Shown here: piece by piece, positions 1 to 9,654 of the stretch
Layout: each line of letters begins with the position of its first letter
How positions within the stretch are numbered: position 1 is the stretch's first letter
DNA from: Chitinophagales bacterium
GTDB taxonomy: Bacteria; Bacteroidota; Bacteroidia; Chitinophagales; UBA2359
Reading direction: 5' to 3'
Assembly: GCA_020629335.1 (NCBI GenBank)
Contig: JAHDDN010000193.1
Coordinates: 1-9,654, forward strand
DNA: 9,654 nt
Notes under the pieces: model-generated
What the model was told of the DNA's origin: nothing
Databases searched by the model: none
The model's input: the letters and a program-made list of their open reading frames with translations, nothing else
Position numbers and translations under genes: made by a program

Positions 1-257
1 CTTATTTTCTGGGAAGTTGTTTGTCCAGTTCCGAATGTGAGTTATATGAAAAAGATTTGTTGGATTTCTATTTTTCCGCCCTTCAAAAAGCATTTAAGGC
101 TGATTTCGACTTCAAAGAATTGGAGCAAGAATGGAGAAAGATGTACCCATTTGCCTGTACCGATTTCACCCGATTCTTATTAGGCTGGATGCCTTCCCAT
201 CAAAAAATAAATAATTACAATCTTAAGTTAATGAATTCCGTTTTATCGAGTTTGTAA
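1..257 (+). CDS. C-terminal end of a probable phosphotransferase (choline/ecdysteroid-kinase-like), 5' end outside window
   Basis: The reading frame is open from base 3 to the TAA at 255-257 with no convincing start inside the window (only a TTG at 21), so this is the last 84 codons of a longer gene. The visible tail is rich in charged helices and carries a segment of the form DFxRFLLGWMPxHxKINxY (about 168-222). From memory, this resembles the C-terminal helix of bacterial phosphotransferases of the aminoglycoside-phosphotransferase/choline-kinase fold. The catalytic loop that would prove it lies outside the window. If correct, it is a cytoplasmic ATP-dependent small-molecule kinase of unknown substrate. 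It ends 10 bp before repeat A copy 1, and transcription faces the operon beyond. The coding call is firm; the family is tentative. Confidence 0.55.
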   Translation, partial: YFLGSCLSSSECELYEKDLLDFYFSALQKAFKADFDFKELEQEWRKMYPFACTDFTRFLLGWMPSHQKINNYNLKLMNSVLSSL

Positions 258-267
258 AACTTAATTA

Positions 268-508
268 TTAGGCGCATCCCACTGCGCTTTTAGGGGCAAG
301 GTACGCAGCTCAAAATCAAAATTACACATCAATCATTATGCATTAAGCATAACAAGCGAAGCGCAGTCGTCGGGCTATCCGTTCTTATGTGGCTATGCCA
401 CTCCTACTCCACTAAGCGCTGCTTGTCTGCCTTTCAGGCCAGCCATCGCATCACTAAGTTCCGTAAGTCGCTGCATGGACGCCACATACCACTTCTATCC
501 CTATGCGG
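268..508 (+). repeat. Structured intergenic repeat family A, copy 1 (long form)
   Basis: Bases 369-508 match 9129-9268 at 139 of 140 positions (A400 versus G9160), and the 5' end (267-280) matches 9034-9047 exactly. Between lies a stem (281-289 with 359-367, 9 bp) enclosing a loop of 69 nt that is not conserved. Further pairings are the closing stem 273-277 with 503-507, an 8-bp stem of TATGTGGC with GCCACATA, and an apical hairpin at 427-442 (six pairs, one bulged C, TTC loop). Copy 2 preserves the closing and apical stems with different bases, so pairing is selected. No protein-coding frame is shared with copy 2. It sits 11 bp after the left-hand gene and 73 bp beyond the end of the HNH gene. 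It could be a REP/MITE-like element or a structured RNA; I cannot tell which. Confidence 0.85.
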
Positions 509-522
509 TTTTTAATAGCAAG

Positions 523-537
523 TATTAGGTAATGAGT
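523..537 (+). repeat. 15-bp direct repeat, left copy, flanking the LRR-ATPase/HNH operon
   Basis: TATTAGGTAATGAGT occurs here and again, in the same orientation, at 4024-4038. In both places it lies 14 bp after the end of a repeat-A segment and is preceded by TTTTTA at the same distance. The two copies enclose the whole defence-like operon and little else, so they may be a target-site duplication, an att-like pair or a dispersed short repeat. AT-rich genomes of this group often carry related TATTAGGTA-type words, so copy number must be known before reading much into it. Confidence 0.6.
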
Positions 538-581
538 TAGATTTTAATCAATATAAAAACCTGTCTTGATCACTTTTGATT

Positions 582-1400
582 TCATTGATCAGACAAAGTT
601 GTAACAGGAGGTAGAACCGTATAACATCCTTTAATGACAAACTCTAATAAAAAAAGGCCATTTTTAGCCTTAAATTCTTTTATCCTTTCAAGTTTTTGTG
701 CTTTTACTGCTTGATCATGTTCTTTGCTCCACTGATCCAATCTTTCTTTAAAATCCCAAAGTGTAGTAGCAAATTCTTGTGCAGTATCCAATCGAGCAGC
801 ATCATGGTAGTCATTTTTAGGATTTTCACCATTTAGATTAAATAGTTCTATTGTTTTTACAGCTTTGGCATATTCATAGCTAGTTTCATCTAAGTTAGCA
901 TTCGCTGTAATTCTCAACATAGGATAACAACCTGTTGCTGAAGTGAAGACAAACTCCAATTGAAATAAATCTAAAGGATTATCCTTTAATGGATTAAAAA
1001 TTAATGGCTGCTCATTTGAGATATTAGTCCTATTTAAAAAATCAACCTTTTTAGTTTCATCAAATAATGGAAAAGCTGTAAGCTTATAAAATCTATTGCA
1101 TAAATCACAGCAGTTATAGTAATTATAAAAATCATAAGCAAGCCACCAATAATACTCTTTTGGGCGATAATGCTCTATATCATCATATTTACCCACGTGT
1201 CTTTCACAAACTGGACACCTATTTTTAGTATAATAATTAAAGGCAGATTTAAACTGAGTCCAATGATTACTAGCACTCTTATTCCTCATTGCCACATAAT
1301 CACTTTCTATTGTTCTTTCTTTCACATATTTGGCATTATATGCTATGCCGTCAGTTAATAAATCATGTAAGTCAGTATAAATACTTCTCAAGTCTCTCAT
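582..1400 (-). CDS. ptuB: HNH endonuclease of the retron/Septu PtuB type
   Basis: A 272-residue protein with a treble-clef HNH core: C62-x2-C65, then D74-I-E-H77-Y-R-P-K81, then C98-x2-C101-N102 with K106. This CxxCE...IEHxRPK...CxxCN pattern is that of the retron-associated/PtuB nuclease family. The next motif, FPLFDE (110-115), and EQPLIFNPLKDNP (130-142) also fit that family. H77 is the expected catalytic histidine and the four cysteines bind structural zinc. The remainder is mostly helical, with a hydrophobic tail. The start ATG overlaps the stop of the upstream LRR-ATPase gene by one base (TAATG), which implies translational coupling and a stable partnership. By analogy with PtuB it would cut nucleic acid when its ATPase partner is activated. 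A run of seven T in the coding strand near codon 250 could hide a frameshift at the extreme C-terminus. The symbol is by family resemblance. Confidence 0.85.
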   Translation of the reverse strand: MRDLRSIYTDLHDLLTDGIAYNAKYVKERTIESDYVAMRNKSASNHWTQFKSAFNYYTKNRCPVCERHVGKYDDIEHYRPKEYYWWLAYDFYNYYNCCDLCNRFYKLTAFPLFDETKKVDFLNRTNISNEQPLIFNPLKDNPLDLFQLEFVFTSATGCYPMLRITANANLDETSYEYAKAVKTIELFNLNGENPKNDYHDAARLDTAQEFATTLWDFKERLDQWSKEHDQAVKAQKLERIKEFKAKNGLFLLEFVIKGCYTVLPPVTTLSDQ

Positions 1401-3742
1401 TATCTTAATAATTGCTCTAGTTCCTCAATTTCTGCTTGCGTTAATTTACTCTCAAATTTGGCAAATTCTTTGTTTTCAATGCCTTTGTTTCTTAAGAAGT
1501 TAATAAATGCCAAATACTGTTTGCTATTTATATTTTGCCCTAAATAAGAATCTGAAATTTCCAATTTTAAATCTTTATATTCTTTACTATTGGTATTGCC
1601 AGTTCTTTCAAATTCATTGTACCTCTCCACCTTTTCTTGCATTTCAGGACTTAGAATAGACTCCAAACCGTAATAAATCAAGAGTGCAAGTCCTGCACTC
1701 ATTGTTTCTGTTCCTCTTTGGTGATAAGGATAAACAGAAACCTTATGATTATTGTCCCAGTATAGTTGGTGAATCTGTTCTTTTTTTCTGCCCAATATAG
1801 AGACTGCATTATGAGTTGTTAAAATAAATTGAATGTTTTTAAATACTTTTTTTAATGCGTTCACCAATTTTCTTTGCCAAGTTGGATGTAGGTGGCGGTC
1901 AAATTCGTCTATTAAAATAACTCCTTTGATTTTTTCATAAACCTCATCTATCGGAAAAGAGGAGGTGTCCTTACTAATGTATTCTACAGCATTACGAACA
2001 CTCATAATGCTTATCAGAATATTGGAGATAATTAAAACATTATTTCTGTATCCCTCGCTCAAATGCTTTAACTTTAAATTCTCCTGTCCAAATCCTTTAA
2101 AATAATATCCTCCTCTTGAACTATGATAAACCTGAATACTTTCTGCCTCATTATTCAATGATAAAAAGTAATTGAGTTTATCGGTTAATTCGCTAATTAT
2201 TTGTTGAGCGATAATCTTTGTACTTTCGCCTTCTTCTGCCTTATTGGCTTCTAAATTAAGTTTATTAAGCACTTGTAGAGGATCATAAAATTTGTCATAA
2301 TTATTGCTAAAAATGGATCTTGTATCATATAATCTATTATGCCCTTGTATTAATTTATTAACAATAGAATTAGTGTCTCTATGACTATCCACATAAATAT
2401 TAGCACCATAAGCCAATAAAACAGGCTGAGGATTATATGTTGTTTCTTTTTCATGTAAATTATCAAAATAGAACCAAAGATTTCTTTCATACTCTCCCCA
2501 CTTCGTTACAATGTCTGATTTTTTAAACCCGAATTTAATATAATCCTCAAAATCGCTATACTTATCCCTATTATCTGATGGGAGCAGTCCAATAGTGATG
2601 GCTTGTAAAATGGATGTTTTGCCTAATCCATTATTAGCTAGTATGATATTAACATCCTTGTCTAATTCTAAAGAAATAGAGCTGAAAATCTTAAAATTCC
2701 GAATTTCTACATTACTTAAATATTCTTTCGCATTTGGTGATTTATTAAATTCTTGTCTTTTCTTGTGTAGTATTGAATCATTTTCTTCTATCCATGCCCC
2801 ATCCTCTACAATGCTTAATAATTCTTCGATGTCATATTTATCACCTTCACTCGAATCTACATAGGTTTTTTCACCGACAGATCTCAATGTTAACAGATAA
2901 TCGTAGTTGATCTTTATACTATTTTTAGGATGATAAAAATACCTCTCTTCTAATGATAAATATTTTTTACTTTCATCAAAAAGCTCATCTACTTTTTTTA
3001 TTATTGCCTGTAAAGCCGTTTTGTAATTATCCCCATCAATATATACAACGAATTCCTTTGCTTTAGCATAATCAATAAGAATTTTGCAATCTTGAAATAT
3101 TATAAAATCTGGCGAAACAAGTTCCTGCTTATTATTACCTAAGAGGAAACTTTTCAATTCCTCAATAAGCGGAACAATCTTATTAGCATTTTTAGACTTA
3201 CTTTCTTTATCCAGCTCCCTTTTTTCATATAAAAAACCAAATGCAAAGGTTGACTCCCAACTAAAACGCTTACGATTTAAGTCGTAATAATTATTCAAAT
3301 AATAACTTGGAATATTGACAATATTGTTGTCTGACAAACGTAAATCTAAGTCTCTTTTTTGTTTAAAAACTTCAGGGAGTTCATATATATTATTATTGAA
3401 GACGACAAACTGATTGAGTTTTTTCAATTCTACAAGTCTTTCAGGAATTTCTGTAAGATTATTTGCGCCTACACAAAGATGGGATAAGTTTTGTAATGCA
3501 TATATCTCATCTGGTAAATTTGACAAATTGTTGAAGTTTAAATGCAGTTCTTCAAGCTTAGTTAAGCTTCTTATCTCACTTGGAATTGACGATATCTGAT
3601 TATGTCTTAAGTCAAGGGATTGGAGCCAATGCAAGTCAAAAACACCCATTGGGATTTCTTTTAACTCCATATACTTAAGATCTAATTTAACACTCCTTTC
3701 TGCCTTTGCTTTTTCTATCCTATTTAATGCCTCTTCTAGCAT
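1400..3742 (-). CDS. Leucine-rich-repeat/ABC-type ATPase fusion, PtuA-like partner of an HNH nuclease
   Basis: A 780-residue cytoplasmic protein. Residues 19-39 are an LRR cap, followed by five LRRs in exact 23-residue register (starting at 40, 63, 86, 109 and 132) of the LxxLxLxxNxLxxIP type. Residues about 155-340 are an unassigned alpha/beta region. From about 343 there is an ATPase of the AAA_21/SMC-ABC class: Walker A ANNGLGKTS (369-377), ABC signature LSEGYR (561-566), Walker B VILIDE (608-613) followed by a HLHPTWQ segment, and switch histidine H644 in LTTHN. All key residues are present. The C-terminal 140 residues resemble those of COG3950/PtuA-like ATPases. No signal peptide or membrane segment is seen. 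It is first in the operon and overlaps the HNH gene by one base. Classical PtuA has no LRR, so the N-terminus may act as a sensor or partner-binding surface; that is inference. Confidence 0.9.
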   Translation of the reverse strand: MLEEALNRIEKAKAERSVKLDLKYMELKEIPMGVFDLHWLQSLDLRHNQISSIPSEIRSLTKLEELHLNFNNLSNLPDEIYALQNLSHLCVGANNLTEIPERLVELKKLNQFVVFNNNIYELPEVFKQKRDLDLRLSDNNIVNIPSYYLNNYYDLNRKRFSWESTFAFGFLYEKRELDKESKSKNANKIVPLIEELKSFLLGNNKQELVSPDFIIFQDCKILIDYAKAKEFVVYIDGDNYKTALQAIIKKVDELFDESKKYLSLEERYFYHPKNSIKINYDYLLTLRSVGEKTYVDSSEGDKYDIEELLSIVEDGAWIEENDSILHKKRQEFNKSPNAKEYLSNVEIRNFKIFSSISLELDKDVNIILANNGLGKTSILQAITIGLLPSDNRDKYSDFEDYIKFGFKKSDIVTKWGEYERNLWFYFDNLHEKETTYNPQPVLLAYGANIYVDSHRDTNSIVNKLIQGHNRLYDTRSIFSNNYDKFYDPLQVLNKLNLEANKAEEGESTKIIAQQIISELTDKLNYFLSLNNEAESIQVYHSSRGGYYFKGFGQENLKLKHLSEGYRNNVLIISNILISIMSVRNAVEYISKDTSSFPIDEVYEKIKGVILIDEFDRHLHPTWQRKLVNALKKVFKNIQFILTTHNAVSILGRKKEQIHQLYWDNNHKVSVYPYHQRGTETMSAGLALLIYYGLESILSPEMQEKVERYNEFERTGNTNSKEYKDLKLEISDSYLGQNINSKQYLAFINFLRNKGIENKEFAKFESKLTQAEIEELEQLLR

Positions 3743-3770
3743 AAATTTATTGTTTTAAGCTATTATTTTA

Positions 3771-3803
3771 CAAATATAGCATATAGATTCCCATTAAACA
3801 AAA
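3771..3803 (-). promoter_or_regulatory. Bacteroidota-type promoter of the LRR-ATPase/HNH operon
   Basis: Read on the minus strand, TTTTG (3803-3799) is followed after exactly 20 nt by TATATTTG (3778-3771), a full match to the Bacteroidota -33/-7 form TTTG-N19-21-TAnnTTTG. The -7 box lies 28 bp before the ATG at 3742, giving a short AT-rich leader with no Shine-Dalgarno sequence. This is the only full match I see upstream of the operon and it argues for autonomous expression. Confidence 0.7.
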
Positions 3804-3979
3804 GTCCCACATTTTAATATTTATATCATCAAAGAGATTTTTAAGGGCTTAAAAACACTTTGAAATGAACAATAAATGATGAATATTATCATTATTATTC
3901 AGCAAGATAATGGCTTAATTAGCGCATAATTATAAGCCGTTAGCCTTTCCTTACTTATAACTACACACTACTCGCTAAG
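3804..3979. other. AT-rich intergenic stretch, no gene seen
   Basis: No coding frame is convincing here. A hairpin at 3912-3938 (GGCTTA with TAAGCC, plus ATT with AAT and a bulged TA) lacks a following T-run on either strand, so it is not an obvious terminator. Because it lies upstream of a Septu-like pair, I looked for a retron-type noncoding RNA, but no reverse transcriptase gene is adjacent. Confidence 0.4.
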
Positions 3980-4009
3980 AATGCAGCCCCGATAGAAGTG
4001 GTATGTGGC
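3980..4009 (-). repeat. Truncated copy of repeat A (3'-terminal 30 bp)
   Basis: The segment corresponds, in reverse orientation, to the 3' end of repeat A and stops inside the GCCACATA arm. Its outer half (GCCCCGAT) resembles copy 2 and its inner half (AGAAGTGGTATGTGG) resembles copies 1 and 3, so it is a mosaic rather than a recent partial duplicate of either. It lies 57 bp from full copy 2 in the same orientation. Confidence 0.7.
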
Positions 4010-4023
4010 TTTTTAGTATTGGA

Positions 4024-4038
4024 TATTAGGTAATGAGT
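4024..4038 (+). repeat. 15-bp direct repeat, right copy, flanking the LRR-ATPase/HNH operon
   Basis: Identical to 523-537 and preceded, as there, by a TTTTTA word that begins directly after a repeat-A segment. Across the 29 bp from TTTTTA to the end of the direct repeat, 23 positions agree. It lies outside the operon promoter, between the truncated and the full reverse copies of repeat A. Confidence 0.6.
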
Positions 4039-4066
4039 ATAGAGACTATTCAATTCTAATACTATG

Positions 4067-4218
4067 AATGCGGCCCCGATGGTAGCGGTATGTGGCGTAT
4101 ATGGGGCTGCCTACGGAACTTAGTGATGCGATGGCTTGCCCGAAGGGAAGACAAGCAGCACTTAGTGGAGTGGCAGCCCCATAGCCACATAAGAGCGGAC
4201 AGCGGGATTAAGCCGCCC
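4067..4218 (-). repeat. Structured intergenic repeat family A, copy 2 (short form, reverse orientation)
   Basis: The reverse complement aligns with copies 1 and 3 over the core (shared blocks include CTTATGTGGCTATG and CCATCGCATCACTAAGTTCC). It lacks the variable loop arm and begins instead with a GGGCGGCTTAATCCCGC end. Its stem is strong: TATGTGGC (4089-4096) and TATGGGGCTGCC (4100-4111) pair with 4184-4191 and 4172-4183, giving 20 bp with a 3-nt bulge. The apical hairpin is 4135-4150 and the ends pair (4070-4074 with 4212-4216). Several of these stems have different bases from copies 1 and 3 yet still pair. It is 10 bp downstream, in element orientation, of repeat B copy 1. Confidence 0.85.
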
Positions 4219-4372
4219 AAATAATAAATCCTTGATACCCCAAGTTTTGTCTTTTTACGATTCTACTGCGTTATTTACTCCTTAGATAGCGATGCTATCT
4301 GCGTCATAAATGCCTTGTATAATCCCAAAAACACTGTAACTTAGCTATCAGATATTTATCATTTGGACGGCT
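4211..4372. mobile_element. MITE-like 162-bp unit with 12-bp inverted ends, enclosing repeat B copy 1
   Basis: AGCCGCCCAAAT (4211-4222) and ATTTGGACGGCT (4361-4372) are inverted copies matching at 11 of 12 positions. The unit holds repeat B copy 1 and no coding frame. The left end is shared with the 5' end of repeat A copy 2, so either the two elements are fused or one inserted at the edge of the other. No transposase is nearby, so any movement would need one in trans. Confidence 0.5.
4229..4331 (-). repeat. Structured repeat family B, copy 1
   Basis: The reverse complement aligns with the last 111 bases of the window. Shared blocks include GATTATACAAGGCATTT, GTAGAATCGTAAAAA and TCAAGGA. The outer arms (4252-4262 with 4321-4331) pair with one mismatch and one G-T. 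The centre is a perfect hairpin of AGATAGC with GCTATCT and a 3-nt loop (4284-4300). In element orientation it is followed 10 bp later by repeat A copy 2. It does not encode a protein. Confidence 0.8.
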
Positions 4373-4452
4373 GCCGCCCTTATAGTTAATTTGTTTAATA
4401 GTCAATTGGTAGAACTTTATCAGTAATGCAAAAATCTGCAGGCATAAGTGAA

Positions 4453-4474
4453 AATACTTAGGCTATAAAGTATT
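4453..4474 (-). terminator. Weak hairpin downstream of the M60 peptidase gene
   Basis: On the minus strand AATACTT and AAGTATT form a 7-bp stem with an 8-nt loop, starting 24 bp after the stop of the peptidase gene and followed only by TTC. The stem is AT-rich and the T-tract is short, so termination here is possible but weakly supported. Confidence 0.3.
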
Positions 4475-4497
4475 GAGTTCGGATATTTATCCAATTG

Positions 4498-7400
4498 TTA
4501 AGGATATTGAAGCACACTAATTGACAATCTGCTATTGTTCATTCTGTACAAATTATAATCGGCTACGGTATTCAGTCCGTCCAAGTTGGCGTCGTTTGCA
4601 TGGTATTCAAAGATCTCAGAAGAATTGCTCACCCAATTGTTGAAATCAAGCACTGTAAATACATTATTCCCGTTAAAATCTCCAGCGAATAGACCACAAT
4701 TACCGTCACCCAGATTCACACAGCTATTACTAGCTGCACTAATATTATTTACATCCGAGAGATCAATGGCTAATTCGGGATTTTCAGCATTTAAGGTCAT
4801 GATAGCCATATGATTTCTGTGTTTCACTGCAAAGAAATAGTTAGTACCACTAATTAGATTACTGAATTTAGGTCCGCTACCACTTCCGTCCACATCTAAT
4901 ATATCTCCGTTAGTTGTGAGGACTCCTGCAACAGTTTCTATTAGTGTATCCCCGTTGTTACCGCTTCTTGCTTCCACCAAAATCCAATCCACCATATTGT
5001 TATAGTTTGGCAAGGTTTCACTCCCATTATAATTCCAAGGAGTGGTGTCATAGGGTTGAGCATTAGGCAAGAAGTTGAGTATTTGAAGATTATTGCTCAT
5101 ACTTCCTCCTATATATGGCCCCTCCAAAAATACTTTGATTGCGACGGCTTGCTTATCACTATTCACCGATTCACAATTTACATCAAAATACGTGCATAGT
5201 ATGTCATCTATTCTTTCATAAATAGCCGCTGCTGTAGTTTCATCATAAAAGTTGAGCATATCGTCATATCGTTCTTTATGATGATCTTCGATATTTGGAG
5301 TAATGTCATTGTAGACAGTCTGAAATTCTGTAGCATTAGCTGGCACTAAAGATCGGTAATATAGAATGCGATCTCTGATTCGATTTTCATCTGGGTAGGA
5401 ATCCAATTGGTCAATTAAAGACTGTGAAGGAAGCTTTCCCCACATTTCCCAAAGTGGGGCAAAATTAAATCCTAATTGATTGGAAGCTACTTCAATATAC
5501 TCTCCAGGTGAAACCACTTCCATTCCATCTTGTACAACTCCAGCATTGATGGCTTCTGTGTACCAATGGTTGTGAATCAAGCCTAAGGTATCCCAAGAAA
5601 ACAATCTTGCTACATCTACATATTTTGCCATTCCTCTTGCTTGATAAGATACATCATCAAATTCCGTAAGCTCCCCATCTCTAAACTTTGAGTCGAGCAT
5701 CCAATCTAAAGCTGCTTGGTCTCCATCCAGATTTTGGAAGTAAGTAGCATAGTACAAAGCAGTATCAATATTAACACCAAAGACGGTATTGAAGGCGATA
5801 ACATTTGGTAGGTCTACATTCGTTTCTCCTTCATCCCACATGGTCGGGAAATTATGTAAATGACCCAATTCATGCAAGACTGTTGTCCCATCATAAGAGC
5901 TCATATATATTTGCGGATCAAGAACAGAGACAGGAAAAGCATCAGCAAGTGCTTCATCCAAATTTCCATTCGGAACGGACATTGGATAGGATGCAGGATA
6001 GGTTACTTCATTGTAGGATTGAGGCTCAATAATGATATATTCAGATCGTATCTTATCTAGCGGCCTACCAGCTAAAATATTAAATTTCCCAATCATATCA
6101 TTCAAGGGCGTCAAAATGGCTGATGCGTCTGGATATGCACTTGCTAAGACTTGGGGAAAGGTACAAAGGAAGTTGTCAGACTCTATATCAACCCAATTTA
6201 CGTAGCCATTATTGACATCTGTTTGATAATCAGAAAGGGAATTAGAATAGCCTGTTTTTGTACTAAAGTAGGGTGCTTTAACTGCATTATTGATCTCTAC
6301 TGTCGTACTTCCGAAGTTCGAGCCGTCTGGAAAAACAAAGAAAATAGCTCCACCAAAAGGGTTAGCAACAGATATATTTGCAGCATCAAGGTTAAATTTT
6401 GTAGCAATATTTGGCATACGCCTGTATCCCTTATTGTCTTCTCGATAATCCGCATAGTGGGCGCCAACATGTACTTTCACACCTTGATTCACAATCGAAC
6501 TAGGAACGGTAATATCCACGATTTCACCTGGCGCGGCATAGTAGCCTGTTGGACGAACCACAAGGGAAGGAGTGTTCAGATAAAAGCCTGGATCGGTATT
6601 ATAATCTCCATCTATGGCTACACTTCCTGAAAGGCGCGGCGCATTGGTAGCTACTGGACCAGGCATAATCTCGTGGTCTAAGAAACTGACGCCAGACATA
6701 TTCGTAACATTGGAGCTGGTATAAACATTGTCTATCAAGTACGTCATTAGCATAAACTGAAGGGCACGTGGAATAGCTACCAATCTATGATTAAAATATT
6801 CTCCGTAAAACTCATAGACTGTTCCCTCTTCTTCTTCATAAGTACTAATGTAATTTAAGATATCCGCACTAATAGCCGAATAAGTATTATCATCCCAATT
6901 ATTAACTATACTTGTTAGCTCTGTTCTTTGCTCAGCGACTGTCAATGGATTGGTCCCATTTACATGATTTGTCATCAGGGCTAAGGCTGAAGCTACTTGA
7001 GCTGAATTGCCCACGGCAACTGGATTGTATATTTTTAGATAATCAATGGAAGTTTCAGCAAAAGCGAAGTCTTCTATATCTTGGAAATTTCCTGCATCAG
7101 TTCCTATCCAAATTTGTTGCGTATTCAAAGACTCCTTGAATATACTGATATCTAAATAGTTCAAAGGATAATAATTGTAGTAGCCATTCAGCTTAAACAC
7201 AATGCTTGGATTTTCTTGATTTAGTCGAAAAATCAACTTTAAGTCAACCCAAGTATTCTCCTCAATGACTTCTGTATAAATAAAGGTCGAACCTTCAAAG
7301 GTATCATCACCAAAAGAGAAAAGAACTCGATACTCTTCATCCATTTCCTCCACAAAAACTTCAAATCCTAAATTGTAGGTAGAAAAACTTTTATTAGTGA

Positions 7401-7746
7401 TTAAAATTCTTCTAGCATTTAGACCGAATTCTCCAGTAGCATCGTAGGGCGAATCGGCATAGGTGTCTGTGATTTTAAATCTTATTTGAATTTCGAGATC
7501 TTCATCAGGATTGATACTTTCATGTACCGCATCTGGCATGATCAAAACTTCATCTCCCTCTAATTGAAGGACTTGATTCCCATCGTCATTGATGATACTT
7601 GGATTGCCCAAAGTGCTTGGTGTATAACCATTAACAGTATCATCCAAATTTGAATCAAAAGGGAAGTTAATAATTTGTCCAGATACACTTGAAGTGCAGT
7701 TCAAACTTAATAAGAGTATTAAATACTTAATTGATAGATTTTTCAT
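4498..7746 (-). CDS. Secreted M60-type (enhancin-like) zinc metallopeptidase with dockerin-like C-terminus
   Basis: A 1082-residue exported protein. Residues 1-23 are a signal peptide (cleavage likely at VSG/Q24; C17 does not fit a lipobox). About 25-240 is a LamG/concanavalin-like jelly-roll with a WIGTDAG segment, and 245-340 is helical. About 375-780 is the Peptidase_M60 region, with the GYYAAPGE and VHVGAHY lead-in, a NPFGGAIF strand, and catalytic HELGH (625-629). E641 in a GETNV segment is the likely third ligand or adjacent conserved glutamate. About 865-1010 is a Bacteroidota surface-protein module (LEGPY, VDWILVEAR, AVKHRNH). Two DxNxDG-like calcium loops follow near 1023 and 1052, in dockerin style. 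M60 peptidases cleave O-glycosylated proteins such as mucins, so the role is probably extracellular glycoprotein degradation. It appears to be monocistronic and functionally unrelated to the neighbouring operon. Confidence 0.9.
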   Translation of the reverse strand: MKNLSIKYLILLLSLNCTSSVSGQIINFPFDSNLDDTVNGYTPSTLGNPSIINDDGNQVLQLEGDEVLIMPDAVHESINPDEDLEIQIRFKITDTYADSPYDATGEFGLNARRILITNKSFSTYNLGFEVFVEEMDEEYRVLFSFGDDTFEGSTFIYTEVIEENTWVDLKLIFRLNQENPSIVFKLNGYYNYYPLNYLDISIFKESLNTQQIWIGTDAGNFQDIEDFAFAETSIDYLKIYNPVAVGNSAQVASALALMTNHVNGTNPLTVAEQRTELTSIVNNWDDNTYSAISADILNYISTYEEEEGTVYEFYGEYFNHRLVAIPRALQFMLMTYLIDNVYTSSNVTNMSGVSFLDHEIMPGPVATNAPRLSGSVAIDGDYNTDPGFYLNTPSLVVRPTGYYAAPGEIVDITVPSSIVNQGVKVHVGAHYADYREDNKGYRRMPNIATKFNLDAANISVANPFGGAIFFVFPDGSNFGSTTVEINNAVKAPYFSTKTGYSNSLSDYQTDVNNGYVNWVDIESDNFLCTFPQVLASAYPDASAILTPLNDMIGKFNILAGRPLDKIRSEYIIIEPQSYNEVTYPASYPMSVPNGNLDEALADAFPVSVLDPQIYMSSYDGTTVLHELGHLHNFPTMWDEGETNVDLPNVIAFNTVFGVNIDTALYYATYFQNLDGDQAALDWMLDSKFRDGELTEFDDVSYQARGMAKYVDVARLFSWDTLGLIHNHWYTEAINAGVVQDGMEVVSPGEYIEVASNQLGFNFAPLWEMWGKLPSQSLIDQLDSYPDENRIRDRILYYRSLVPANATEFQTVYNDITPNIEDHHKERYDDMLNFYDETTAAAIYERIDDILCTYFDVNCESVNSDKQAVAIKVFLEGPYIGGSMSNNLQILNFLPNAQPYDTTPWNYNGSETLPNYNNMVDWILVEARSGNNGDTLIETVAGVLTTNGDILDVDGSGSGPKFSNLISGTNYFFAVKHRNHMAIMTLNAENPELAIDLSDVNNISAASNSCVNLGDGNCGLFAGDFNGNNVFTVLDFNNWVSNSSEIFEYHANDANLDGLNTVADYNLYRMNNSRLSISVLQYP

Positions 7747-7798
7747 TTCTTTGCTGATTTCATGTTAAATATTTACAGTTCATACATTAGATGTAAGA

Positions 7799-7830
7799 CA
7801 ATATTAACAATTCAAGCTATCTATCACAAG
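7799..7830 (-). promoter_or_regulatory. Candidate promoter of the M60 peptidase gene
   Basis: On the minus strand CTTG (7830-7827) is followed after 20 nt by TAATATTG (7806-7799), which differs at one base from TAnnTTTG. The leader to the ATG at 7746 would be about 45 nt. The spacing is right but both boxes are imperfect, so this is tentative. Confidence 0.35.
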
Positions 7831-7943
7831 TAGAAATTCAGCTTATAATTAGGTTTCAATAATTAGACAATTGGACTTTAAATACATTATAAATAAAACA
7901 AAAATAACTGATTAATAAGGTTTCTATTTTTATAAAAATTTCA

Positions 7944-8135
7944 TCACACAGCTATCTGTTGAAGCTTGGAATAGGGACTACTATTTTTGAAATAACCAAC
8001 GGCCTCTACTTGCTCCATTAGTTGTAAGATAATTTCATCAGCCTCTTCTAGTTGATCACAACAAGTAATGACTAATTTGCGAGGGTTAGGATTATCCATC
8101 CAATCATAATGTGCTGCCTGACGAATGAGATTCAA
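7944..8135 (-). CDS. Small ORF of unknown function, possible gene remnant
   Basis: A frame of 63 codons from a TTG (8135-8133), or 51 codons from the first ATG (8099-8097), ending at TGA. It begins 6 bp after the stop of the secreted-protein gene and is in the same frame, so the two are separated only by TAA. The peptide has a PRKLVITCCDQLEEADE segment and a predicted acidic amphipathic helix ending in EQVEAVGYF, which looks like real protein rather than noise. It has no export signal and I do not recognise it. It may be a true small cotranscribed gene or the 3' remnant of a gene whose front was lost. No start codon is supported by a ribosome-binding site. Confidence 0.4.
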   Translation of the reverse strand: MNLIRQAAHYDWMDNPNPRKLVITCCDQLEEADEIILQLMEQVEAVGYFKNSSPYSKLQQIAV

Positions 8136-8141
8136 ATTATC

Positions 8142-8927
8142 TTAGTTTTTTTTAACTGGTCTTTCGTAGGGTTCTTCTATAAGACCATCATATTCTTCTT
8201 CTTTCTTTTTTATTGCTGGTTCTACTAAAGGAGTAAATGTAAATAGCATAATGTGATAATGATCTTCTTTTAGAACATACCCAATGATAATATCTAATTC
8301 GGCCTTGTATTCATCGCTATAATACGTGCCACGAGCTGAAGAAACATTATTATTCAACTTATTAGATTTCAAGAATAATACTTTGCTATCATAAATCACT
8401 TTAAATTTGTTGAAATTTATAAGTGCTAAGGAATCAAAGGTGAACTGCTTATCCAGATTTCCTTTTTTCAGAGCCTGATCAAAATCGGCCAGAATATCAT
8501 GTTCTTTTATGATTGGTTTTCTATTCACAGTAATGGAAGTATTACCCATATGATCTTGGACAGTAACATACGGTATTTCTAAATGTCGAATAGTAGCAAT
8601 AGGGCCAAAAATTAGCGTATTGTAATGATCTTTTTGATCAAAGCGGCATGAAAGTAAGATGGTTTCATCTTTTAATAAGTGAATGGATTTGTCTCCTTTT
8701 ATTTTTCTATAAGTCAACTCTTCCTCCTTGCTAAATTGCATCAACTCTTTTAAATGCTGAGTCACCAATTCTTTTTCTGTCTCATGCCATGCACCCATAT
8801 TTATAGAGTCTAATAAAACGCTTGGGTCGTTCATTTCAAAAGCACTTATAATGAGATCTGCATAGGTTTGAGTAACAGCTATCATGCTTTTAAATAAAAG
8901 GAATACGATTATAAAAAAATGTTTCAT
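8142..8927 (-). CDS. Exported protein of unknown function
   Basis: A 261-residue protein whose first 20 or so residues are a clear signal peptide (MKHFFIIVFLLF core, cleavage likely after AVTQ). I recognise no family. The mature part mixes helices (about 25-75) with regular hydrophobic strands (about 82-140 and 180-240), including HYNTLIFGPIATIRHLEIPYV and DHYHIMLFTFTPLVEP. The tail (241-261) is highly charged and proline-containing, without a sorting domain, so a periplasmic or outer-membrane-associated soluble protein is likely. The coding end reads AAA-AAA-AAC-TAA; a -1 slip there would add only two codons. The ATG was chosen because it begins the signal peptide and lies just after a good -7 box. 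It is probably cotranscribed with the small ORF behind it. Confidence 0.75.
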   Translation of the reverse strand: MKHFFIIVFLLFKSMIAVTQTYADLIISAFEMNDPSVLLDSINMGAWHETEKELVTQHLKELMQFSKEEELTYRKIKGDKSIHLLKDETILLSCRFDQKDHYNTLIFGPIATIRHLEIPYVTVQDHMGNTSITVNRKPIIKEHDILADFDQALKKGNLDKQFTFDSLALINFNKFKVIYDSKVLFLKSNKLNNNVSSARGTYYSDEYKAELDIIIGYVLKEDHYHIMLFTFTPLVEPAIKKKEEEYDGLIEEPYERPVKKN

Positions 8928-8941
8928 CTCCGTCTTTTAAG

Positions 8942-8949
8942 CAAAGATA
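8942..8949 (-). promoter_or_regulatory. Bacteroidota -7 box for the exported-protein gene
   Basis: On the minus strand TATCTTTG is a full match to TAnnTTTG, 14 nt before the ATG at 8927, which would give a leader of only about 8-10 nt. No good TTTG lies 19-21 nt further upstream, so only the -7 element is supported. Confidence 0.45.
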
Positions 8950-9034
8950 AGACTTATCAATGATTTTGCTATAAGAAAAAAGAGCTAAAACAATTCTTTC
9001 GCATATCCCCTTTTCATAAATAAGTTATTAATGA

Positions 9035-9268
9035 TTAGGCGCATCCCTTGCGTTCGTATAATCACTTACATAGCTCAACCCGATTGCGCATTCATTACTA
9101 CCTATTTATCATTTACCGAAGACGCAAGGTCGGGCTATCCGTTCTTATGTGGCTATGCCGCTCCTACTCCACTAAGCGCTGCTTGTCTGCCTTTCAGGCC
9201 AGCCATCGCATCACTAAGTTCCGTAAGTCGCTGCATGGACGCCACATACCACTTCTATCCCTATGCGG
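9035..9268 (+). repeat. Structured intergenic repeat family A, copy 3 (long form)
   Basis: The last 140 bp are identical to copy 1 except at 9160, at an exact offset of 8760 bp. The 5' word ATTAGGCGCATCCC is also shared. The loop-closing stem (9047-9053 with 9122-9128) has different bases from copy 1 but still pairs, and it encloses a loop of 68 nt unrelated to that of copy 1. The closing stem is 9040-9044 with 9263-9267. Two open frames over this stretch are by-products of the repeat. Bases 9269-9374, between this copy and palindrome C, hold nothing I can identify. Confidence 0.85.
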
Positions 9269-9374
9269 AATTAGTTAACAATGGTATAAGCAGCCCATCA
9301 TCATCTCGATTATTACTAAATCAGTCATTTTTTTGATACACATTACTGTTAGTGGCTCAGTTTATTAGTTTCTG

Positions 9375-9547
9375 ACAGTTATAGTCCTCCACGTCAGGAT
9401 TTGTGAAAAGTTGATGAAGCTATTTTTTTGACTCGCAAGGCGAAAAACGAAGGCAACGCATCGCGTTGGTGAGGCTTTTCAACGCAGCGAGGCGGGAAAA
9501 TAGCCCATCAAAACTCACAAATTTAGATGTGGTGGACTATAAGTTGT
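9375..9547. repeat. Long imperfect palindrome C (173 nt)
   Basis: The arms 9375-9426 and 9497-9547 are reverse complements with scattered mismatches and small bulges. The best blocks are TTATAGTCCNCCAC, ATTTGTGA and GCTATTTT against their complements. The centre holds a perfect small hairpin, CAACGC-ATC-GCGTTG (9454-9468), with weaker pairing between. It does not encode a protein and its 3' end overlaps the start of repeat B copy 2 by a few bases. It may be a large MITE-like foldback element or part of a longer composite with B. Confidence 0.7.
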
Positions 9548-9654
9548 AGGATTTTTGCGATTATACAAGGCATTTTTGAGGCTCATAGCAGGGCTACGAA
9601 ACGAAAAAATAACGAAGTAGAATCGTAAAAATACAAAAATTGGGCTGTCAAGGA
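9544..9654 (+). repeat. Structured repeat family B, copy 2, continuing past the window end
   Basis: It aligns with the reverse complement of 4229-4331. The outer arms TTGTA-gg-ATTTTTGCGATT (9544-9562) and 9621-9636 pair over 16 bp with one G-T and a 2-nt bulge. The apical stem is TAGC/GCTA with an AGG loop (9586-9596), where copy 1 has a longer stem with an ATC loop in element orientation. The window ends at AGGA, exactly where copy 1 leads, 10 bp later, into a repeat A copy. Confidence 0.8.

Follow-up and report, generated by a model that had tools for sequence, protein, structure and literature searches.

A probable Septu-type gene pair whose PtuA-like ATPase carries a leucine-rich-repeat and putatively Roco-related front end

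What is a leucine-rich repeat (LRR) doing on the ATPase of a Septu-like gene pair? The question is raised by a 9,654-nucleotide contig of a Chitinophagales bacterium (assembly GCA_020629335.1, contig JAHDDN010000193.1, positions 1 to 9,654; ‘the window’ denotes this whole stretch), in which an LRR-bearing PtuA-type ABC ATPase gene is followed by a PtuB-type HNH nuclease gene. We consider it probable, with real room for doubt, that the pair is a Septu-type (PtuAB) immune module whose PtuA has gained a cis-acting front end related to LRRK2 and other Roco proteins. To our knowledge, infection sensing by canonical Septu is not settled. A fused, recognisable and swappable front would make Septu sensing testable by domain swap.

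An earlier note, made from the sequence alone, had described overlapping genes for a PtuA-like ATPase with five 23-residue LRRs and a PtuB-like HNH protein, and this description holds. Both open reading frames (ORFs) are present (Table 1), and the junction sequence has base 1400 in common between the ATPase stop TAA and the HNH start ATG. A regular expression finds LRR units at residues 40, 63, 86 and 109, spaced by exactly 23; by eye, a fifth unit lies at about residue 17 and another at 132 (residues 110-128 are of low confidence in the predicted model). On the ATPase, LRR_14, LRR_8, LRR_4 and four AAA/SMC models of Pfam exceed their cut-offs. All ATPase and HNH motifs are intact, the latter as C62xxC, IEHYRPK at 75-81 and C98xxCN. 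The Walker A motif opens with A, where most relatives have G, and HNH residues C62, C65, H77, R79, P80, K81, C98, C101 and N102 show no variation across 21 sequences including the query. Predicted single-chain models give the ATPase core a PtuA fold and the HNH protein a PtuB fold. Both features of Septu, a PtuA-type ABC ATPase and an adjacent PtuB-type HNH protein with an intact motif, are therefore present, as judged from sequence and predicted fold.

Table 1. Coordinates of the gene pair and its features within the window
Feature	Position	Strand	Remarks
LRR / COR-B-like / PtuA-type ABC ATPase gene	1400..3742	-	780 amino acids
Leucine-rich repeats	3275..3694	-	about residues 17-156
COR-B-like middle domain	2810..3109	-	about residues 212-311
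ABC ATPase core	1793..2725	-	residues 340-650
Walker A ANNGLGKT	2615..2638	-	residues 369-376
ABC signature LSEG	2051..2062	-	residues 561-564; invariant among aligned relatives
Walker B and D-loop VILIDEFDRHLHP	1883..1921	-	residues 608-620
H-switch TTHN	1808..1819	-	residues 642-645; invariant among aligned relatives
C-terminal tail, type A (type paired with long PtuB)	1403..1792	-	residues 651-780
PtuB-type HNH nuclease gene	582..1400	-	272 amino acids; start overlaps ATPase stop by one base
HNH core CxxC / IEHYRPK / CxxCN	1095..1217	-	residues 62-102
Promoter-like site TTTG-N20-TATATTTG	3771-3802	-	ends 28 bases before ATG

The fusion is not a peculiarity of this locus. A protein search with residues 140-780 (7998 candidates scored) listed 61 proteins, of which the nine weakest (P0054-P0062, at most 79 bits) were set aside, leaving 52 homologues including the query. 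Pfam assigns an LRR front to 24 of them, a TPR front to 18 and neither to 10, part of which are short or truncated proteins; with 24 of 52 homologues of LRR type, a unique fusion was rejected. A genome scan returned 51 loci out of 170 candidate stretches, by record title from metagenome-assembled genomes (MAGs) of Bacteroidales, Saprospiraceae, Cytophagales, Campylobacterota and Leptospiraceae; seven of these loci (L045-L051), at E 1e-4 or weaker, match only as ATPases in general. Pooling the loci, the stretches chosen from one MAG rich in family members (G200) and the window, at 200 bits or more on the family's own profile, gave 47 distinct family ATPases.

An HNH gene lies at most 250 bases downstream in 44 of the 47, with gaps of 167 and 197 bases in two cases. 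Outside this count are L031, where the HNH gene is present with an overlap above the limit used; L004, where the contig ends with no HNH gene in reach; and L037, which is without one. Some partners score only 15-30 bits on our HNH profile, and PADLOC assigned nine out of nine such weak scorers to PtuB (E 1e-23 or better). With the G200 stretches left aside, 26 of 45 ATPases overlap the next gene by 4 bases. LRR-type ATPases (two or more regular-expression repeats, or Pfam above cut-off) account for 18 of the 47 loci, and 17 keep the HNH gene, the exception being L004 at its contig end. The earlier note had named three outcomes that would speak against it; since an LRR-ATPase with an adjacent HNH gene recurs, two of them, uniqueness and loss of the partner, have failed to appear.

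Outside the multi-copy bin described below, the family is rare. It occurs in at least 1 of 395 genomes in the phylum of a Saprospiraceae MAG and at least 3 of 298 in that of an Arcobacter MAG, search centres included; two to three candidates were scored per genome, which makes these counts lower bounds. A phage-borne origin was rejected, as two viral scans gave no relative (the phage-record collection was not searched), and a plasmid search gave no place covering 80% of the window ATPase.

The stretch between the LRRs and the ATPase likely has a relative too. The listings from fold searches with the whole ATPase model were filled by ATPase and LRR rows, so the assignment of this middle domain comes from sequence comparison. 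Residues 150-340 alone retrieved only the query from the protein search, and with the domain alone every Pfam row stayed below threshold, including a COR-B row for L005 (E 0.089). In the genomes of six relatives, the COR-B model PF25497 touches an LRR-PtuA protein (G202 C461, apparently the same as L015) at E 5.4e-5 and 25.1 bits, against a cut-off of 27. When a profile of 34 middle domains was compared with one of 20 COR-B domains from the same bins, the match had a probability of 94.7, E 6e-8 and a score of 52.7 over 104 columns. Controls gave probabilities of 0.10 for COR-A and 0.08 for Roc, and 30 column shuffles scored at most 16.3. Without the window's clade and L015 (28 rows) the probability was 93.7, and a second alignment pair gave 90.3. 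In a PDB profile search, four of the six rows up to E 10 were ‘Rab family protein’ chains, which we take to be bacterial Roco chains, aligned in the COR-B register at E 0.07-0.51. The middle domain is thus likely COR-B-like, and some 185 residues left unexplained before would have a relative.

A larger cousin suggests how such a front could arise. In G200, L120:3624-7880 encodes a protein of 1418 amino acids with the order LRR-Roc-COR-A-COR-B-PtuA-type ATPase. PADLOC calls its ATPase PtuA (E 2.4e-84), although with only 104 bits on the family profile the protein ranks as a cousin rather than a close member. The next ORF gives a match to the second half of PtuB (E 1.7e-22); a run of N masks the first half. 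The simplest history would be that a Roco front end was joined to PtuA and that Roc and COR-A were then lost or bypassed; independent recruitment of the front end is a possible alternative. The bins G200-G204 each hold 4 to 10 COR-B matches (E 0.1 or better), mostly in frames of 630-1085 amino acids, which is a Roco expansion in bins of family members.

The family's ends are exchanged between cores. Past the ATPase core there are two tail types: tail A is found with a long PtuB in 17 cases and tail B with a short PtuB in 26, with no crossed case. One tail-A partner counts as short because the contig cuts its HNH gene at 59 amino acids, the tail-B call of L033 is weak, and three of the 47 ATPases have no scored partner. 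PADLOC called all of 13 short and 4 long partners PtuB; PDLC00351 ranked first among the models for every short partner except L033 (12 of 13) and for no long one. Tail type thus predicts HNH type, and this coupling predicts a PtuA-PtuB docking element.

Individual pairs show where the exchanges fall. Core identity between P0025 and P0029 is 93%, against 29% over their 348 N-terminal residues, with the step at the start of the ATPase. L006 shares 78% of its core but only 24% of its tail with P0006, and its tail is 95% identical to that of P0032; P0019 and P0034 have identical tails on cores of 69% identity. Front modules diverge much faster than the core and differ on near-identical cores. LRR number ranges across the family from none to about 11 by regular expression, and P0010 has no LRR but retains both the first helix and the middle domain. 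A core tree, built by a quick method without bootstrap, held 79 rows (from 88, with four skipped for lack of a motif match and five identical cores dropped). On it, tails change at least 8 times (shuffle mean 26.1) and LRR labels at least 13 times (shuffle mean 25.4), 10 of these forced by strongly supported branches; the LRR count is inflated by some ‘other’ rows that are short or truncated proteins. As both labels are clustered relative to the shuffles, exchange has been repeated but not free.

Other architectures occur among the relatives. L030:7898-11248 encodes NB-ARC, TPR and a PtuA-type ATPase in one protein of 1116 amino acids; after it comes a PtuB that is divided between two frames. 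In the PtuA-type ATPases L036:9172-11850 and P0011 the N-terminus resembles the UDG superfamily, in each case with a score under the Pfam cut-off. At G138 C65, G121 C2 and G089 C203, a frame of 730-744 amino acids with an HNH match adjoins a second HNH gene; the long frame may be a PtuB-PtuA fusion and its neighbour a further PtuB.

Copy number can be high. At 1e-20, 42 rows match in the bin G200, and 34 stretches chosen from these hold 36 ATPase ORFs, 26 with an HNH-profile match (E 0.1 or better) directly downstream; these 26 pairs are of PtuA-PtuB type with all front types mixed, not LRR alone. The system is wider and more modular than the earlier note supposed, and we read it as a modular, recombining version of Septu that resembles nucleotide-binding LRR (NLR) immunity. 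A bolder reading seems to us evenly balanced between right and wrong: a combinatorial innate-immune repertoire built on Septu, with PtuA as switch core, exchangeable recognition fronts (LRR with COR-B, TPR, NB-ARC-TPR, full LRR-Roc-COR, possibly UDG-like) and tail-nuclease cassettes, in dozens of copies per genome diversified by recombination and by LRR gain and loss. It would be a counterpart of plant NLRs, with Roco-type modules as an immune sensor platform.

Several observations weigh against a Septu module with a Roco-related front. The window's own clade (three members) gives a modest match when compared alone with COR-B (probability 55.2, E 1.2e-4, score 33.3); three further controls scored at most 19.2, and this clade matches the remaining middle domains at 98. 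AbaSI tops the PDB profile search at E 0.004, above Roco. Scores on NF041760, NF041761 and TIGR02646 fall below their cut-offs (123.8/500, 30.9/150 and 27.9/52.15 bits); the NCBIfam thresholds for PtuA and PtuB are tuned to the Ec78 retron, and these sequence scores rule out the Ec78 subgroup without counting against Septu at large. The relatives come almost entirely from MAGs or short metagenome contigs, and repeats promote chimeras, so the module swapping might be an assembly artefact of metagenome bins. We rate this as highly improbable: several pairs step at domain boundaries, the tail-HNH rule that random chimeras would break has no crossed case, and ribosomal L14 is single-copy in each of ten bins, which argues against gross mixing, though not against mixing of strains.

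Genomic context also counts against a defence role. The defence enrichment expected by the earlier note was not found in a limited test of 138 neighbour ORFs at 22 loci, compared by family-level counts (25 of 91 and 25 of 54 families listed) with a small control of 42 ORFs, drawn from 20 stretches within the same three bins. Closest among genomic relatives is L001, with 72% identity over ATPase residues 544-772 and 57% in the HNH protein. It is flanked by apparent ordinary metabolism or housekeeping genes, as read from translations; its contig begins inside the ATPase gene, and the front is not covered. Such surroundings, the many copies in one MAG and the position of the window pair between inverted copies of a dispersed repeat would suit something other than strict phage defence, such as a stress module of a toxin-like or anti-plasmid kind, or else a selfish, addictive pair spreading as cassettes. 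Defence genes are themselves rare and patchily distributed, and the patchy distribution across phyla fits them equally. PtuAB relatives are proven defence effectors (PMC13096335, PMC11555353), and we judge the non-defence alternatives improbable.

How might an immune PtuAB module with a Roco-related front work? The PtuA ATPase core would oligomerise and hold the PtuB HNH nuclease through its C-terminal tail, and the LRR and COR-B-like front would keep the complex off, or position it, until a cue of infection reaches the LRR face. A change of state in the ATPase would follow, and PtuB would cleave tRNA or DNA and so halt the phage or the cell. In Roco proteins COR-B serves dimerisation, and by analogy the COR-B-like domain may set the PtuA oligomer. 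Among relatives, retron Eco7 PtuAB depletes tRNA-Tyr, and Septu EcB88 cuts the tRNA-Tyr variable loop with both ATPase and HNH motifs required (PMC13096335); an ATPase-gated nuclease output would thus be expected here. Retrons of type I-A hold PtuAB in check through their retron part (partly after PMC11555353), which would make the fused LRR-COR-B front a natural candidate for the restraining role.

The front could instead be a scaffold only, serving stability, dimerisation or localisation in an ordinary Septu whose activation resides in the ATPase core, as in canonical PtuAB. The core and HNH protein are near canonical PtuAB in predicted fold, and the homologues without LRR and TPR models, some of them short or truncated, would agree with this. 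Fast-diverging fronts that differ on near-identical cores fit recognition better than scaffolding, and we regard a pure scaffold as unlikely. Nothing else hints as strongly at a front that recognises something variable as this exchange between near-identical cores. Module swapping adds weight to the earlier note's suggestion that the front is a sensor, as does the COR-B relationship, which that note had not seen.

The same note had given the pair its own promoter. A TTTG-N20-TATATTTG site, of the Bacteroidota-type consensus, precedes the ATPase gene; a sigma-70 scan gave no minus-strand site upstream. The window holds 2 such matches against a shuffle mean of 0.34, and 2 were reached in 10 of 200 shuffles, so the site is a plausible, unproven promoter. 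The dispersed repeat, of 126-153 bp, has three window copies (369-521, 4078-4203 and 9129-9281), two of which, in inverted orientation, bracket the gene pair; within the family of the closest relative, 1 of 199 genomes has matches, at 79-82%. At 4498-7746 on the minus strand lies a gene for a 1082-residue protein whose N-terminal domain is M60-like and which also gives a borderline match to M60 peptidase.

The pair can be set beside several known systems. A retron was rejected, as Pfam finds no reverse transcriptase in five window ORFs and no Rfam family reaches gathering score in the window; in retron type I-A (Ec78/Eco7, Ec83) control lies with reverse transcriptase and msDNA, whereas any control part here is fused to PtuA. 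Among the papers listed, judged by titles and abstract starts, no LRR- or Roco-PtuA is described, though papers on ABC ATPase classification and PtuAB structure may mention one earlier. The ptuXYZ system likewise has a PtuA-like ATPase with other partners, but these are a DUF262 protein and a PIN-YoeB toxin, and the passages describing them do not mention an LRR (PMC11980606). As in Roco proteins (LRR-Roc-COR; C. tepidum Roco, human LRRK2), an LRR precedes a putative COR-B-like domain; unlike them, the output is an ABC ATPase with a nuclease, and Pfam finds no Roc GTPase or COR-A in the window ATPase (Roc is present in the relative L120). The Roco family has been studied mostly for LRRK2 and Parkinson's disease, and the connection between LRR-Roc-COR-PtuA and LRR-COR-B-PtuA suggests that Roco-type modules have an immune function in bacteria. 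Bacterial NLR-like proteins (bNACHT, Avs/STAND) join a repeat sensor, an ATPase switch and an effector, and the pair would share this logic; its ATPase is of ABC/PtuA type and its effector a separate gene, and Pfam finds no NACHT or NB-ARC in the window ATPase (NB-ARC occurs in one relative, L030). With Septu type I (PtuAB; E. coli structures 8ee4, 8eea, 8sux) the pair shares a PtuA-fold ABC ATPase beside a PtuB-fold HNH protein, as predicted, with intact motifs and no reverse transcriptase among the five ORFs scanned; it departs from that type in about 340 extra N-terminal residues, with LRR and COR-B-like domain, and in belonging to a family with exchangeable N-termini and tails.
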